The position numbers and the translations under genes were made by a program. A stretch of DNA of 36,647 nucleotides from an uncultured Verrucomicrobiota bacterium (GTDB taxonomy: Bacteria; Verrucomicrobiota; Kiritimatiellia; RFP12; UBA1067): the NCBI GenBank assembly GCA_946610035.1, contig CAMOCC010000021.1, forward strand, positions 1 to 36,647, written 5' to 3'. Each line of letters begins with the position of its first letter. The stretch's first letter is position 1. Below are positions 213 through 36,647 of the stretch, piece by piece. The notes under the pieces were generated by a model that was not told the DNA's origin, did not search any database, and saw only the letters and a list, made by a program, of their open reading frames with translations.

Positions 213-234
213 TGTCGCTTCATGGGCTATGCTG

Positions 235-4608
<4,374 letters not shown>

Positions 4609-4637
4609 TTGTTAAGTCTCCCTGATAGATGTCCGCC

Positions 4638-8558
<3,921 letters not shown>

Positions 8559-8622
8559 TTTTCTGTGCCTTTGTTGATTGTTCAGTTGCAAATATGACTT
8601 GGAAACCCTAGTCATGCGCCTG

Positions 8623-29006: not shown

Positions 29007-30266
29007 CTAGCCCTTGAGGCTGGCGAGCGGGACGAGGCGCACGAGCGGCTCGACGAGGTCAAGCTCGGACGAGATGACGTTCTCGATGTCCTTGTACGCC
29101 TGCGGCGCCTCGGAGAGGTCGAACTTGCCCTTCGCCTTCTTGCTGAAGCCTTTGTACTTGCCCCAGCGCTCGCAGACGATGCCCTCCATCGCCTTGTCGC
29201 ACTCCTCGACCGTGAGGTTCGCCGAGGCCGCGACGCGCGACATGCGGCGTCCCGCTCCGTGCGAGCAGCTCATGAAGGAGTCGGGGTTGCCGAGTCCGCG
29301 CACGATGTAGCTGGCCGTCCCCATCGAGCCCGGGATGATTCCGATCTCGTCGAGCTTCGCCGACGTCGCGCCCTTGCGGTGCACGAACACCTTCTTCCCA
29401 AAGTGCTCCTCGCAGGCCGCGTAGTTGTGGTGGATGTCGATCGTGCGAACGAAGTTCGCCTCGGGCGCAAACTCGAGAAGCGTCTCCTTCATCGCCTCCA
29501 TAATACGGCGGCGGTTCTCCTTCGCGTAGCGGAGCGCGAAGAGCATGTCCGTGAAGTAGTCGTGCCCCTCCTTCTCCGCGATCGGAAGGAACGCGAGGTC
29601 GGGGTCCGCGAGCGGCACTCGGTAGCGCGTGCAGAGGCGCGAGGCGATCTTGTGGTAGTGCTCCTCGATGCGCTTGCCGAGGTTGCGCGACCCGGAGTGG
29701 ATCATAAGCCAAACACGGCTCTCACCCCCATCCGATAGGGCGCGATCACCAAGCGCGCCGCCTATCTCGAGCGGCGTCGTCTTCTGCAGCTCGATGAAAT
29801 GGTTGCCGCCGCCGAGCGTGCCGAGGTTCATGCGGTCCAGCTTCGACGACCAGAGGCCCGAGCGCATGCCGTTGTTCGCGGTGTACTCCTCGAAGCCCTC
29901 CCAGTCCTGCGTCGTCTTGTGCGAAACACCCTCGCCTACGGGAATGCGCGTCTTAAGCTTCTCCTGGAACGCGCGCCGGAAAGCCATGTCCGCAAAGCGC
30001 TCCGCCGGAACGTCCGTCTCCGTCGCAATCATTCCACAGCCGATGTCCACTCCGACCGCCGCCGGGATCACCGCGTCCTCCGCAGCGACCACGCCGCCGA
30101 TGGGCATGCCGTAGCCCTGGTGCGCGTCAGGCATGAGCGCCACGTGGTGGAACAGCGCCGGATGCTGCGCAAGGTTCTCCGCCTGCTTCACCGCGCCCTC
30201 CTCGCAGTCCGCGCACCAAGACTTGATGTGCATCCGCCAGCCCTCGTCATACTTCTCCCACTTCAT
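29007..30266 (-). CDS. rtcB: RNA-splicing ligase RtcB
   Basis: A GTP- and Mn-dependent RNA ligase that joins 2',3'-cyclic phosphate (or 3'-phosphate) ends to 5'-OH ends, acting in RNA repair or tRNA healing. It has 419 residues. Hallmarks are MPDAHQGYGMPIGG, the metal-binding C77 in VGVDIGCGM, GGGNHFIELQ, IHSGSRNLGK, and the guanylylated histidine region SCSHGAGRRMSR. AAGGAG lies eight bases before the ATG. Upstream in the same direction is a truncated rtcA, so this was probably once an rtcA-rtcB unit. No rtcR-type activator is seen. Confidence 0.97.
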   Translation of the reverse strand: MKWEKYDEGWRMHIKSWCADCEEGAVKQAENLAQHPALFHHVALMPDAHQGYGMPIGGVVAAEDAVIPAAVGVDIGCGMIATETDVPAERFADMAFRRAFQEKLKTRIPVGEGVSHKTTQDWEGFEEYTANNGMRSGLWSSKLDRMNLGTLGGGNHFIELQKTTPLEIGGALGDRALSDGGESRVWLMIHSGSRNLGKRIEEHYHKIASRLCTRYRVPLADPDLAFLPIAEKEGHDYFTDMLFALRYAKENRRRIMEAMKETLLEFAPEANFVRTIDIHHNYAACEEHFGKKVFVHRKGATSAKLDEIGIIPGSMGTASYIVRGLGNPDSFMSCSHGAGRRMSRVAASANLTVEECDKAMEGIVCERWGKYKGFSKKAKGKFDLSEAPQAYKDIENVISSELDLVEPLVRLVPLASLKG

Positions 30267-30327: not shown

Positions 30328-30333
30328 TCGTCA

Positions 30334-30579
<246 letters not shown>

Positions 30580-30785: not shown

Positions 30786-30860
30786 TGGCTCGGATGGCTG
30801 GACTCGAACCGGCAACGGCCGCATTAACAGTGCGGGGCTCTACCATTGAGCTACATCCGA
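30786..30860 (-). tRNA. tRNA-Asn (anticodon GTT)
   Basis: A canonical cloverleaf: acceptor stem TCGGATG/CATCCGA, D-arm GTAGCTCAATGGTAGAGC, anticodon loop CTGTTAA (anticodon GTT), T-arm with GGTTCGAGTCC. The discriminator is G at 30789, as usual for tRNA-Asn, and CCA is encoded at 30786-30788. It is the last and only regular member of a small minus-strand tRNA group. Confidence 0.93.
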
Positions 30861-30862
30861 AT

Positions 30863-30940
30863 TGGTTGCGGGAGCCGGATTCGAACCGACGTTCTACAGC
30901 TTATGAGACTGCCGCTGGAACCACTCCAGTCAATCCCGCA
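30863..30940 (-). tRNA. tRNA-like gene with CAT anticodon and displaced D-arm
   Basis: The acceptor stem TGCGGGA/TCCCGCA, a T-arm with loop TTCGAAT, an anticodon loop CTCATAA and encoded CCA (30863-30865) are all present, so the outer shape is that of a tRNA. The D-stem is not at its usual place, because positions 10-13 do not pair with 22-25. Instead CTGG/CCAG forms a stem two bases further on, with a 7-base loop and a two-base link to the anticodon stem. The anticodon stem has two G-U pairs. It may be a decayed tRNA-Met/Ile2 or a non-canonical one. It lies just upstream of tRNA-Asn. Confidence 0.65.
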
Positions 30941-31501: not shown

Positions 31502-31579
31502 TGGTGGGCCTGGCGGGAATCGAACCCGCACTGTCTTGCACCTCAAGCAAGCGCCTCCTGCCAGTTGGGCTACGGTTCC
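31502..31579 (-). tRNA. tRNA-like gene with GAG (Leu) anticodon, short variable loop and mismatched acceptor
   Basis: A perfect T-arm (GCGGG/CCCGC, loop TTCGATT), anticodon stem CTTGC/GCAAG with loop TTGAGGT (anticodon GAG) and encoded CCA (31502-31504) are visible. Two features are abnormal. The variable region has only five bases, although leucine tRNAs have a long variable arm. The 5' acceptor strand GGAACCG pairs with only four of seven bases of the 3' strand CAGGCCC. It may be a recombinant of two tRNA halves, a pseudogene, or an RNA that needs editing. The ATG of the sigma-like gene follows 19 bases after the CCA. Confidence 0.55.
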
Positions 31580-31900: not shown

Positions 31901-33325
31901 TTATAGACGATATAAATCTATCGCGTTGCGGGTGAGAGGCGGAATCTTTGCGGCGGACGCTGAAAGACCAAAACATCTGCACCATCTGGCAAGTCCGTCG
32001 CAGATTTCCTTCACGACGGCAGGACGGATCTGGCCAAGTTCCACCGCATTTGCGTAGTAGTAGCTCTCGCACAGCCGCTGCTCGAATTCGTCAGCGGATG
32101 GCAAACCGCTTTCTTCCGCAGGTTCCCACCAGAGCGTATAGCCAGCACGGTTGATGTTCGGCGCCAAAACGGCGAACCGTGGCGCACCATGCCTTTCCGA
32201 CAGCGCATTGATGACGGTACCGACAAATGCCGGATGTAGTTTCTCCCCGCACAGATCCGACACGCCCCCGCTGCGGTACAAAAACTCAAGGCGCGGCGTC
32301 CGTCCAACAAATCCGACACACTCCACCACGTCCCCTAGCCTGTAGTCCGTGAAACCGTTCCCCGTCGTGAGGACAACACCGTAACGTCTTCCAACTTCAA
32401 GTCGTTCAATCCCGACAGCCGTTCTGGAAATTGGCTCCGACGTCGCCGGATCGACCGTCTCGAACGCCAACGTGTGCGACGTCACAGCCGCGACACGCTT
32501 CCCGAACCACGGAATCGTGACGACTCCCTCCGTTGCGAGAAGCCCCTTGCCCTCAACCTCAACGCATGGGAACATCTGCCGCAAACAATCGGCGTCGCCC
32601 TTCGCGAACGCAGCGTCCCAACAGCTGATTACCTTGAGATGGGGCCATACTGCCGCATAGTTCCGCGCTGCGAGCCGTTCAGCCAGTCGCGCACCTTCCC
32701 GTATTGGGGTTTTGCGAAGTCCTTCGCCCCAGTCACCCGTTGTCAACGCATGCACTAGTTCCGCCGCATGCTCCGTCATGTACTCAAGGATGCGGATGAA
32801 GAACGACGGATGCCACACTGAAACGATTCCCAGACGGTACGAGGCAAGCAGACCGAGTGCAGTGAGACGCCGATGGCGTGCAGGATCACTTACGCCGCGC
32901 ACGATGTCCGACACAGGAAACAGCGCCCGCGTGATACGACATCTCAACGAACCAAGATATTCGCGGTCCTCCGCGAACCCGCAACGCGCATCGCAGTCCC
33001 CACCTCGCACCTCGGTTGTCGGCGAAATCGCCCAATAGTGCGTACAGCGCAAAAGCCCGGGATGACGGAGGTAGAGCGAAGCCATCCACGGATTCACGGC
33101 GCGCATGAACTCGCGGCGGAGCTGCTCGGTGTACGGGATCAGCTTGTTCGCGCCAGTCGATCCGCTGGTGGGTTCGTAGAGGATGACATCTTCTTCCCTT
33201 GTCGGTCTCCGCCGCCGCGCCACAACCGCCTGCGCACACGCCGGGTTACGCAGCGCCAGCGCAAAACGGATGGTGTCCGGCAAGGTCGAGGCGAACCAGA
33301 GCAAGTTAGAGAGAAACACTTTCAC
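31901..33325 (-). CDS. GH3-family acyl-adenylating enzyme (auxin-responsive promoter family)
   Basis: A 474-residue member of the GH3 branch of acyl-adenylating enzymes, which activate a carboxylate with ATP and commonly join it to an amine. Visible motifs are the ATP loop TSGSTGANK (53-61), LLATEG (262-267), YRLGD (328-332), and the hinge region EFLYRSGGVSDLCGEKL (347-363). A GTG start at 33325 is chosen. It has GGAG eight bases upstream and overlaps the preceding stop as GTGA, matching the ATGA junctions elsewhere in the operon. An ATG at 33346 is the alternative. Its substrate is unknown. It is the last gene of the operon. Confidence 0.85.
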   Translation of the reverse strand: MKVFLSNLLWFASTLPDTIRFALALRNPACAQAVVARRRRPTREEDVILYEPTSGSTGANKLIPYTEQLRREFMRAVNPWMASLYLRHPGLLRCTHYWAISPTTEVRGGDCDARCGFAEDREYLGSLRCRITRALFPVSDIVRGVSDPARHRRLTALGLLASYRLGIVSVWHPSFFIRILEYMTEHAAELVHALTTGDWGEGLRKTPIREGARLAERLAARNYAAVWPHLKVISCWDAAFAKGDADCLRQMFPCVEVEGKGLLATEGVVTIPWFGKRVAAVTSHTLAFETVDPATSEPISRTAVGIERLEVGRRYGVVLTTGNGFTDYRLGDVVECVGFVGRTPRLEFLYRSGGVSDLCGEKLHPAFVGTVINALSERHGAPRFAVLAPNINRAGYTLWWEPAEESGLPSADEFEQRLCESYYYANAVELGQIRPAVVKEICDGLARWCRCFGLSASAAKIPPLTRNAIDLYRL

Positions 33326-34026
33326 GGCGTACGCTCCAGATGCCATTCCGGCACCGTCGCCTCGATCACGCGCAACCCCAGCCGGTTGAGGTTGTCCGTC
33401 GCGAGCGGCGCAAGGCAACACAGCTCGTCGCCGTTCATCCATCCGGGATTCAACGCGCGAAAACGGACGGATTCCGCGTCCATGCGCAACACGTCGCCGC
33501 GAAGGCGGTCTTTCTTCCCCGAAAAATGCAGGACGCCCGTCGCTGGATTGTATTCGCGCGGGTACAGCGCGGACGCGACACGCGCGAGCCGTTCTGAAAG
33601 GTCGGCATCCGCAGCAAGCCCCGGTACGTAACGTCTAAAGAAGGTCGGGAGGAAGCGGTACGTGCGCGCGCCCTTGCTGATGAGAAACCAGTACGCCGTC
33701 TCGTCAGGGAACATGCCCTCCACAAACTTGATCATGTGGCCGAACCCGCCCGAGAGCCCCCATTGTCCGCGCTGCGACGTCTCGACCACCGTGTCTCCGC
33801 TGAAGAGAACGCGCATCCCCGCAACGTCGACGAGCTTCATCGTGGAGAATCCGCATACGCCTGTTCCACGCAGGAGAATCGCGTAGTCCTTCTCCGCAAG
33901 GTCGCGACGGAAATCCGCCTCGTCTGCGCCGACATAGAACTCCCGGTAAAGTCGTTCCATTGCGGCGACATCCACTTCGCGGAGCAGGCTTCGGCTCCAA
34001 ATCTCAACCTTCACGTCCGCAGTCAT
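33322..34026 (-). CDS. GNAT-like acyltransferase, second copy
   Basis: A 234-residue protein. After a strand-helix N-terminus (VKVEIWSRSLL, then DVAAMERLYREFY) it has a central MKLVDVAGMRVLFSGDTVV followed by SQRGQWGL, which fits the acyl-CoA-binding motif A (Q/R-x-x-G-x-G/A) of GNAT enzymes. The C-terminal half (HFSGKKDRLRGDVLRM) is unlike standard GNATs and no substrate can be named. It is coupled upstream by ATGA and downstream by GTGA overlaps. Its motif A resembles that of the preceding gene, suggesting two distantly related acyltransferases. Confidence 0.7.
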   Translation of the reverse strand: MTADVKVEIWSRSLLREVDVAAMERLYREFYVGADEADFRRDLAEKDYAILLRGTGVCGFSTMKLVDVAGMRVLFSGDTVVETSQRGQWGLSGGFGHMIKFVEGMFPDETAYWFLISKGARTYRFLPTFFRRYVPGLAADADLSERLARVASALYPREYNPATGVLHFSGKKDRLRGDVLRMDAESVRFRALNPGWMNGDELCCLAPLATDNLNRLGLRVIEATVPEWHLERTP

Positions 34027-35039
34027 AGCGCCCCCGCTTCAATGTACGGCACGCCGCGAAGTTCATGGCTACACCCATCAAATTTGACTGTCAAGAACTC
34101 GCTGCCGTAATTGAATCCCCCGAGCGACTTGACGACATTGCACAGCGGATCGCTGGCATGGAGCGAGAGAACGATATTCCGGCCATGGCACGTCCGTCGC
34201 GCCGACTCTACGAGCTCGGAAAAGAGAAATGGGTCATCATTCTCCACAAGTGCATACGCGAGATACGAACACGCAAGCTCTCCGCCAGGCGCAGGGAGGC
34301 GCGGCCGGCGTGAAAACGCGTTCAGGGCGGGACGGAGCGCGCTTAGGACGAAGTTCCCGTATCCATCGACGAGGATACGCCTCCGAGCACCATGGTTCCA
34401 CACGGCCGCAGCAGCTGCAATGCGCCCCCCTCGACGGATGACAAAGAAATCATCCAGCAACAATCCAGGGGGCAACTTTGCGCCGAACACTGGAAAGAGC
34501 TGCCGTCGCGGCGACTCGCGTGCGTAGAACGCAGCAAGGTCGTCGAATGAGACACGTTCCGGCATGGCGCCACACCGTCCGGAAAGCGCATAAGTCACGA
34601 CCTTGCCGCAAGGATTGTACTTCGGCAATCCCACTCGTCCAGACGTGAGGAGTGAACGTCCTTCAGGATTGTCGTCAAGTATAGTCGTAAACGTCAGTAC
34701 GTTCGGAGATGCCGCCTCCAGGTCGGCGATCATCTGGAACCCCCGGAACAAACCCCAGCCCCGTCGTCCTGCTGCAAAACTTCGAAGTCCGCCTAGGTAG
34801 CCAACCTTAGACGGTTCGCCGTCAAGGTAAAGGCACCTTGTCGAGCGCGTTCCACATCCTGCGATGTGCCCTTCACCATCCTCCACGACGACGATTTCGC
34901 TGTCGCCCTTTAGCGCCTCGGCAGCGACATATCCCGAAGCGTAGTCGTACCTGAGCCGCACCCACCCCGGCATCGGCGCAGCAGCGAGCCGGACGAGTTC
35001 CGGCTCGTCTGACGGGCGGTAAAGACGTGCATGCGTCAT
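34023..35039 (-). CDS. GNAT-like acyltransferase, first copy
   Basis: A 338-residue protein from the ATG at 35039 (MTHARLYRPSDEPELVRLAAA), a typical GNAT opening. The family fold is supported by EIVVVEDGEGHIAGCGTRST followed by GYLGGLRSFAAGRRGWGLFR, where the RRGWG segment fits motif A for acyl-CoA binding. The C-terminal half (FFVIRRGGRIAAAAAVWNHG) looks like a second GNAT-type sheet, so it may be a double-domain enzyme. The start is set by the ATGA overlap with the radical SAM gene; longer in-frame starts would overlap it by over 150 bases. The substrate is unknown. Confidence 0.75.
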   Translation of the reverse strand: MTHARLYRPSDEPELVRLAAAPMPGWVRLRYDYASGYVAAEALKGDSEIVVVEDGEGHIAGCGTRSTRCLYLDGEPSKVGYLGGLRSFAAGRRGWGLFRGFQMIADLEAASPNVLTFTTILDDNPEGRSLLTSGRVGLPKYNPCGKVVTYALSGRCGAMPERVSFDDLAAFYARESPRRQLFPVFGAKLPPGLLLDDFFVIRRGGRIAAAAAVWNHGARRRILVDGYGNFVLSALRPALNAFSRRPRLPAPGGELACSYLAYALVENDDPFLFSELVESARRTCHGRNIVLSLHASDPLCNVVKSLGGFNYGSEFLTVKFDGCSHELRGVPYIEAGAL

Positions 35040-36358
35040 GGATCGCCTCCGTTTGGAAGTCCATGCCGACGCATGACCTCGCGTTCCTGGGTGAAATTCG
35101 AGGCGAAGAAGAGAACCGCCTTCAGAAAGCCATGGAGGTTCGCGCGGAAGTCCATCGCACGGCGGAAGATCGACTTCACCGAGTAAAACTTGAGGCGGAA
35201 CCTGCGACACGTCTCCGCCAAGCCCTCAGGCGTAAAATTCTTTGGACGGAACACGACATCGCCAAAGTGGACTGTCGGGTCGAGCCACCATTTTTCGTGG
35301 AGCAAACGACCTTCACGGACAAACCGCGCGTGGACGTCAGTTCCTGGAAACGGCACAAGGTGGTTGAACGCTGCGAAGAAAAACTTGCTTTCCATTGCGA
35401 ACTCGAACGTGCGCTCGAACGTCTCCGGCGTGTCGTGGTCATAGCCGAACACGAACGTCGCGTAGATCGACAGGTGATGCCGGCGCAGGTTCTCGATTGC
35501 GGCGGAGTAGTCGCTGTTAGTCGAGTTGACGCGCTTGCCCATCTCCGCAAGCGTCGCACCGTCCAGGGACTCAAAACCGATCAGTACGCCGGCACAACCG
35601 CTCTTCGCCATCAGCGCAAGGAGTTCGTCGTCCTTAGCAGAATGGATACTGAGTTGTCCGACCCAATGCATGCGCATCGGAATCATGCGGCGGCACAGTT
35701 CCTTTAGGCGCTCCACGTCCATTGCCAGATTGTCGTCAACAAAAAAGACAATGCGTTTCTCAAGTGAACGTACCTCCGCCATCACCTCATCGAGAGGACG
35801 CGGCGTATAGCGCCGCCCGAAGAATTTTGTGACTGAGCAGAACTCACAATTAAAGGAGCAACCGCGCGACGTCTCGACGAGGTTGAGCCGCCCGTAGTTC
35901 CTCCCGGCATAGAGTCCACGGTCGGGTATCGGGCAGAACACGCCTCCACATCCGACATAGCGCGACTTGAGAGCCCCCGACTCCAGATCGTCGATCACCT
36001 CGCCCCACGTCGTCTCCGCATCTCCAAGAATGATCGCATCGGCATGTGCGGCGGCCTCGTCTTGATTGAGCTTCACGTGGAATCCGCCGAGTACCACTTT
36101 CGCACCCTTCGCACGGAAGCGGGACGCAATCTCGTAACTGCGCGCAGCCGTGTAACACTCGACCGGCATCGCCACGACATCCGCGTCCGCCGAATAGTCG
36201 ACTTCGCCGAGACGGTCGTCCATGAAGAAACGCTCGATCCGACGCGGCGTGAGCGCGGAAAGCACGGCAAGCGCAAGCGGTTCCATGATCCACGTTTTCG
36301 GGTAGACCGCTCGGCCGCCCTTGTGCCCGACCGCAGGCTGGACGAAGAGGATGGTCAT
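35036..36358 (-). CDS. B12-binding-domain radical SAM enzyme
   Basis: A 440-residue enzyme starting at the ATG at 36358, which overlaps the upstream stop (ATGA) and has GAGG six bases upstream. Residues 1-130 form a cobalamin-binding-like Rossmann domain with GGFHVKLN (91-98), although the classic DxHxxG cobalt-ligand motif is not evident. The 4Fe-4S cysteines C167, C171 and C174 (CSFNCEFC) are followed by a radical SAM barrel (FFVDDNLAMD, LIGFESLD, ATFVFGYDHDTPETFE). The architecture recalls HpnP/HpnJ/BchE-type methylases and rearranging enzymes. The chemistry is not predictable. Confidence 0.88.
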   Translation of the reverse strand: MTILFVQPAVGHKGGRAVYPKTWIMEPLALAVLSALTPRRIERFFMDDRLGEVDYSADADVVAMPVECYTAARSYEIASRFRAKGAKVVLGGFHVKLNQDEAAAHADAIILGDAETTWGEVIDDLESGALKSRYVGCGGVFCPIPDRGLYAGRNYGRLNLVETSRGCSFNCEFCSVTKFFGRRYTPRPLDEVMAEVRSLEKRIVFFVDDNLAMDVERLKELCRRMIPMRMHWVGQLSIHSAKDDELLALMAKSGCAGVLIGFESLDGATLAEMGKRVNSTNSDYSAAIENLRRHHLSIYATFVFGYDHDTPETFERTFEFAMESKFFFAAFNHLVPFPGTDVHARFVREGRLLHEKWWLDPTVHFGDVVFRPKNFTPEGLAETCRRFRLKFYSVKSIFRRAMDFRANLHGFLKAVLFFASNFTQEREVMRRHGLPNGGDP

Positions 36359-36647
36359 TCGCATCCTCTTTTTGCGAATTCCGTGTCCACGAGGCAGGCC
36401 GGAACGAGCCTGTCCCCGTACACCGTCACATCGACGCACGGGTCGCAGTGCTCCACTTTCCCGTCTTCGGAAAACTCCGGGAGCGCCTCAACTACAAGGT
36501 GTTTCGGACGCACGCGCTCGCGGCGAAAAATCGCCGCAAAGACGAATGCGAGGTTGCGCAGCGGCCCGCCTAAAAGCGCATTCAACGCAATACGCGCAAG
36601 CGTCCCCCACTTCCCCGCGCGGACGCGATAGGGCAACTGGATGCGAA
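36355..36647 (-). CDS. C-terminal part of a probable radical SAM/SPASM-type protein
   Basis: An open frame enters from the window edge at 36647 and ends at 36355. About 97 residues are visible. The end holds a cysteine cluster, CDPCVDVTVYGDRLVPACLVD, reminiscent of auxiliary iron-sulfur sites at the C-terminus of radical SAM proteins. A preceding hydrophobic helix (ARIALNALLGGPLRNLAFVF) is also present. The true start lies outside the window; a TTG at 36636 is not a credible start. Its stop overlaps the next start (ATGA), placing it in the same operon. Family assignment is tentative. Confidence 0.5.
   Translation of the reverse strand, partial: RIQLPYRVRAGKWGTLARIALNALLGGPLRNLAFVFAAIFRRERVRPKHLVVEALPEFSEDGKVEHCDPCVDVTVYGDRLVPACLVDTEFAKRGCE

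Follow-up and report, generated by a model that had tools for sequence, protein, structure and literature searches.

We analysed a 36,647-base stretch of DNA (the window) that is the entire contig C21 (CAMOCC010000021.1) of an uncultured Verrucomicrobiota bacterium, and found at its end part of an operon, completed on a second contig, whose core gene set recurs across bacterial phyla. The eight genes, A to H, encode five radical S-adenosylmethionine (SAM) enzymes (A–E), two proteins predicted to adopt GNAT folds (F and G) and one GH3-family enzyme (H). The core of the set is F-G-H and the radical SAM genes are variable and missing from the cyanobacterial loci; the set is real, widespread and not peculiar to this genome. 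With about even confidence, we read the operon as having been acquired horizontally and as directing the synthesis of a modified N-acyl amide, of which an aminolipid or an N-acyl amino acid is the likeliest kind. The host is a rumen-type bacterium with a 3.03-Mb genome in 191 contigs.

The recurrence was assessed in loci seeded on G: a single peptide pattern from that protein retrieved 152, of which the best 80 were kept, so that the locus counts are conditional on G; gene calling was imperfect in high-GC loci (e.g. L036). By their record titles they come from Lentisphaerae, Kiritimatiellae, Verrucomicrobia, Planctomycetota, Acidobacteria, Cyanobacteria, Myxococcales, Alphaproteobacteria and further groups. 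Of the 78 loci with 0.8 kb of downstream sequence, 71 had H at some position; F was likewise present in 59 of 76 loci having 1.2 kb upstream, and B12-type radical SAMs in 46 of 63 having 4.5 kb upstream. Outside the Cyanobacteria, GH3 followed G immediately in 61 of 64 loci and F immediately preceded it in 55 of 62; the search for the gene order in other genomes that an earlier note had proposed finds it across phyla, beyond chance. The cyanobacterial loci (n = 14, taken from record titles) kept G, contained oxygenase-type genes and had GH3 in nine cases. Among 387 genomes of the phylum, G was found in 19, F with a strong match (E < 1e-70) in 18 and GH3 in 48. All 18 genomes with F lay within the 19 with G, and 17 of the 19 had GH3 by Pfam; genome G153 yielded GH3 via tblastn, and G374, with the weakest G match, had neither F nor GH3. 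Three weak F matches (G298, G211 and G071) come from genomes that lack G and were left out of the F count. GH3 was rejected as a marker on its own: it occurred without G in 31 of the 48 genomes bearing it, and a Streptomyces GH3 (H17) lies in a polyketide neighbourhood without annotated G or F, so that GH3 alone does not mark this system. Across the 36 loci with G, F and H all full-length, the pairwise distances of the three proteins correlate (r of 0.72, 0.82 and 0.62; 0 of 2,000 permutations as high, each). At one Myxococcales locus (L112:10638-11822) a DUF3419 gene, which we take to belong to the family of the betaine-lipid synthase BtaA, stands after G, and GH3 was not found at that locus.

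The earlier note, made from the letters alone, had described a five-gene operon with four overlapping junctions. The five minus-strand frames are present, and so are the overlaps, ATGA at 36355/36358, 35036/35039 and 34023/34026 and GTGA at 33322/33325, but the operon is larger. The last 55 bases of the window are identical to the first 55 of contig C133 of the same assembly, and extension past position 36647 through this overlap, the sole support for the join, completes the cut gene D and adds radical SAM genes A, B and C upstream, making eight genes with five radical SAMs. Coordinates are given on the joined sequence of C21 and C133, with all genes on the minus strand (Table 1). Neighbouring genes overlap by four bases at all seven junctions, four in the window and three more on C133, in keeping with the tightly coupled set that the note had proposed. 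The near relative L028 also has four-base overlaps at seven of seven junctions, by coordinates and with the stop of B placed from the end of the match.

H carries its GH3 label above the Pfam cut-off, as had been proposed (GH3 55.4 bits and GH3_M 52.6 bits; cut-off 23.6), and its best PDB match is JAR1 (E 1.5e-7). It has the motifs T53SGSTGANK61, A264TE266 and G324FTDYRLGD332. Conservation was judged from alignment column counts in place of strict motif patterns: the adenylation residues G55, T265, E266, Y328, D332 and K362 are present in 66 of 66 aligned proteins and K61 in 64 of 66. H shares the adenylation residues and the YRLGD motif with plant GH3 (JAR1) but is shorter (474 residues), has a motif I shorter by one residue, and shows no detectable GH3_C in the window protein. 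By profile comparison, OlsH comes closest to H among characterised bacterial proteins; it is the nearest bacterial model whose function has been tested and, one chance match aside, the only NCBIfam family near that of H. In the available text of its description, OlsH uses ATP to couple free fatty acids with ornithine in the N-acyl-ornithine synthesis of the Singulisphaera acidiphila OlsH/OlsI pathway, and its operon includes OlsI, an alpha/beta hydrolase, and, in S. acidiphila, OlsG (PMC12493201). That operon, as far as the available text goes, resembles ours in placing a GH3-family enzyme with acyl transfer and tailoring. It differs in that Pfam detects no OlsG or OlsI among A–H, which instead include two GNATs and five radical SAMs, and neither "radical SAM" nor "GNAT" occurs in the text of the paper available to us.

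F and G had been called GNAT-like acyltransferases, with the advice to predict their structures. The confident models agree with the label, F being predicted as a double GNAT of N-myristoyltransferase (NMT)-like fold and G as a single GNAT. The F of the window matches no Pfam family at E ≤ 1, NMT included, and has no NCBIfam name. Its best structural matches are myristoyl transferases, 49 of 50 among the best matches listed (VIA); in Foldseek the first rows by E-value are double GNATs of the Eis type, above which the NMTs stand in VIA. The fold alignment to NMT is full-length, with the last model residue aligned up to the last residue of NMT, at 13% identity. In the F alignment (A3: the window protein and 56 of 59 full-length F proteins, the close duplicates L046, L048 and L051 being omitted and two partial proteins dropped), all 57 proteins share the same final column, which holds a hydrophobic residue (Leu in 53), and the same fixed C-terminus is found in four further proteins. 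A terminal carboxylate acting as catalytic base would lead one to expect such an end, and the available text of PMC4964394 calls that mechanism unique to NMT within the GNAT superfamily. A PDB profile search by sequence with A3 gave one weak match (E 0.43). From its model, F probably resembles eukaryotic NMT, and we propose terminal-carboxylate catalysis for it: the likeness lies in a double GNAT fold across all of F and in the conserved C-terminal residue, the differences in the low identity, the lack of a Pfam match, the bacterial origin and the setting within a biosynthetic operon. Eis-type proteins likewise have two GNAT domains, but F, with 338 residues, lacks their third domain.

The G of the window also has no match in Pfam and no NCBIfam name, and the closest structural neighbours of its predicted fold are NatD and GCN5, tied with acyl-homoserine lactone (AHL) synthases. 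PDB profile searches by sequence gave nothing for the G alignment (A2, the window protein and 66 of 80 G proteins) and two weak matches (E 0.43 and 0.89) with alignment A1. An apparent G-H fusion in L032 and L033 was rejected as an artefact, with a stop codon inside the match.

The radical SAM label holds for all of A–E, each of which exceeds the Pfam Radical_SAM cut-off and has a CxxxCxxC motif; this motif is present in 113 of 114 B12-type radical SAMs. The B12-type label is less secure, B12 binding not being established by the matches of A (27.4 bits) and E (20.5 bits) against a cut-off of 32.1. There are two pairs of paralogues, A with E (38%) and B with D (40% identical). NCBIfam gave no equivalog assignment for A–E, all scores being below cut-off: C is nearest to TrsS (122.5 bits, cut-off 490) and Tes, a glycerol dialkyl glycerol tetraether (GDGT) synthase (102.2 bits, cut-off 450), with Tes as its best solved relative (E 3.4e-20), and E matches the ladderane-associated TIGR04072 weakly (72.5 bits, cut-off 360). 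The likeness to TrsS and Tes is one of core similarity, far below the equivalog cut-offs, and concerns C alone, an accessory gene; the accessory B/C/D-type radical SAMs are found in 19 of the 62 loci with long flanks. Of these 62, B12-type radical SAMs stand alone in 31, where no O2-type oxidase gene was recognised, and together with such genes in 14; another 13, all of them cyanobacterial, show oxidase genes but no B12-type radical SAM, and the last 4 lack both kinds. The oxidase clusters, labelled like other accessory families from one scanned representative each, comprise Rieske, fatty-acid desaturase, fatty-acid hydroxylase, ferritin-like and AurF-like proteins, the AurF and ferritin matches of the representatives being below Pfam cut-offs. 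Their position and exclusion suggest that oxidases replace the radical SAMs. PAP2, SnoaL-like, hexapeptide and amidohydrolase genes are recurrent neighbours, and fatty-acid desaturase, PAP2, fatty-acid hydroxylase and Mpo1-like genes make up the lipid-type ones. An 11-gene version on an IncF-type plasmid of a Citrobacter portucalensis gull isolate (NZ_CP134684.1; L126:12004-24099) combines G, GH3, five radical SAMs, F, PAP2, a SnoaL-like gene and a desaturase; megablast detected it in a single plasmid record and not in any Escherichia coli genome. An Acinetobacter baumannii record (L127:7111-16544) has HlyD, MFS, G, GH3, outer-membrane efflux, F and SurE genes without radical SAMs.

The set occurs sporadically (F in 1 of 34 other genomes of the window's genus). 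The 3-kb blocks at 30–36 kb have a GC content of 58–60%, against 63–67% elsewhere. In L045, from a metagenome-assembled genome placed in another genus, A–D and G–H are 88–99% identical to the window at the DNA level, E is 71–85% identical and F lower still, and the edges of the divergent segment, near 36.36 and 34.05 kb, lie at gene junctions. At the protein level, the window E is closer to L054 and L058 (88–89%) than to L045 (80%), and the window F closer to L007, L053 and L058 (71–72%) than to L045 (54%). Gene exchange between operons is the simplest reading of this mosaic and suggests that the product varies among strains. The idea that E and F travel as a fixed pair did not hold: between L007 and L058, A (99%) and F (94%) are shared, whereas E matches at only 60%, B at 59% and D at 49%. 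The best reading is of a pathway that is moving horizontally and recombining.

Gene content and order, conservation, the predicted folds of F and G, motif residues and mosaicism are the observations from which we infer each reaction, substrate and product of the proposed pathway. H would use ATP to adenylate a carboxylic acid, which is probably a fatty acid, and would then couple it to an amine, as OlsH does with ornithine. F, a double GNAT of the NMT type, would acylate an amine with its own C-terminal carboxylate as base, and G, the single GNAT, would perform a second acyl transfer. A–E may catalyse oxidation, methylation, desaturation or cross-linking of the chain or head group, and in oxygenic lineages Rieske, AurF-like, ferritin-like, desaturase and hydroxylase genes at comparable positions may take this role. 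The suggestion that acyl transfer and GH3-type adenylation point to an acyl or amine conjugate is supported. Given the characterised GH3 step of OlsH in the available text (PMC12493201), the product most likely belongs to the N-acyl amino acids or aminolipids, a class that we hold with moderate confidence. In agreement with the earlier note, our literature searches, within the text available, found no described pathway with this gene set; the nearest was the OlsH paper, and other mentions of GH3 concerned plant GH3 or glycoside hydrolases.

Several points weigh against this reading. F is absent from all 14 cyanobacterial loci, which also have no B12-type radical SAMs, and is therefore not indispensable. 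The correlated distances of G, F and H argue for shared inheritance, not function, and may reflect shared descent only. Strict GH3 motif patterns match just 19–22 of 47 full-length relatives, with only single key residues invariant. The GH3 family acts on other acids too, among them plant hormones, so that the acid of H need not be a fatty acid. The OlsH model NF052613 (cut-off 620) gives no match to the window H at E ≤ 10, and its relatives score 20.7–55.3 bits or not at all; by these scores H is not an OlsH, which serves as a precedent for the chemistry, not as a family assignment. Among the genes scanned, none was recognised as encoding an acyl carrier protein.

Other products would also fit parts of the gene set. 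A non-lipid small-molecule conjugate (for instance a siderophore, a signal or an antibiotic) whose short acyl groups come from acetyl-CoA is possible, if rather unlikely: most GNATs use acetyl-CoA, the NatD, GCN5 and AHL-synthase neighbours of G accord with it, and the efflux-type genes of the Acinetobacter locus suggest export, but the myristoyl transferases that dominate the best matches listed for F and the lipid-type neighbours at many loci speak against it. Another idea is membrane-lipid remodelling, with C, related to the tetraether synthase Tes, and the other radical SAMs modifying bulk membrane lipids and F-G-H acting on a head group. The TrsS and Tes matches of C, its solved relative and the ladderane-associated match of E favour this idea, yet all of these scores are far below the curated cut-offs, C belongs to the accessory set, and the sporadic presence within the genus is unusual for a bulk lipid; we regard it as unlikely. 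A lipidated ribosomally synthesised and post-translationally modified peptide (RiPP), with radical SAMs modifying a precursor peptide that the GNATs lipidate, is improbable. The seven four-base overlaps leave no space for a precursor gene within the operon (short genes outside it were not systematically searched), and cyanobacterial loci retain G and usually GH3 without B12-type radical SAMs, although RiPP systems too include radical SAMs of the B12 and MoaA types (the NCBIfam matches here being weak) and F resembles a peptide acyltransferase.

Table 1. Genes of the operon and the mosaic segment (positions in the window, or in the joined sequence where marked)
Feature	Position	Strand	Remarks
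A, radical SAM	39802-41121 (joined)	-	start picked among several candidates
B, radical SAM	38723-39805 (joined)	-	
C, radical SAM, Tes/TrsS-related	37461-38726 (joined)	-	
D, radical SAM, 369 aa	36355-37464 (joined); window part 36355..36647 (C-terminal); remainder L003:1-872	-	55-base overlap; full protein Radical_SAM 54.3 bits
E, radical SAM, B12-type architecture, 440 aa	35036..36358	-	Radical_SAM 61.6 bits; CSFNCEFC
F, double GNAT, N-myristoyltransferase-like fold, 338 aa, C-terminal Leu	34023..35039	-	predicted fold
G, single-domain GNAT-fold protein, 234 aa	33322..34026	-	predicted fold; most constant member of the set
H, GH3-family acyl-acid amido synthetase, GTG start, 474 aa	31901..33325	-	Pfam GH3, GH3_M
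Mosaic E-F segment, divergent from L045	34050..36360 (limits approximate)	.	comparison with the otherwise 88-99% identical L045 operon

The end of a gene for a DUF4143 protein lies upstream of A, and DUF4143/AAA-type ATPase genes are repeatedly found near the operon in related genomes (L007, L008, L048; L003:4633-5169), which may reflect their general abundance only. Just past the 3' end of the operon are three tRNA genes (Asn, Met and Leu; window 30786-30940 and 31502-31579, minus strand), a common type of integration site. Further along, a complete RtcB RNA ligase gene stands beside an 81-residue fragment (29007-30266 and 30331-30576, minus strand) whose match to the RNA 3'-phosphate cyclase profile is confined to its first 34 positions and which is apparently a broken gene. 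Near the other end of the window, at 229-4608 and 4629-8615, two pairs of long open frames lie on opposite strands over the same DNA (1330/1457 and 1322/1325 residues).

Taken to its full extent, the gene set would represent an undescribed pathway crossing phyla and making a new class of N-acyl lipid or amide, with F working by the NMT mechanism and tailoring by radical SAM or oxygen-dependent iron enzymes according to lineage, a reading that we put forward tentatively. If it is true, one pathway swaps radical SAM for oxygen-dependent tailoring, the C-terminal-carboxylate mechanism of NMT also exists in bacteria, and the acyl amides that bacterial GH3 enzymes serve include, besides the ornithine lipids, a second class that is widespread. 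The set is present in culturable bacteria (Chthoniobacter flavus and Nostoc), and its product can therefore be sought directly.

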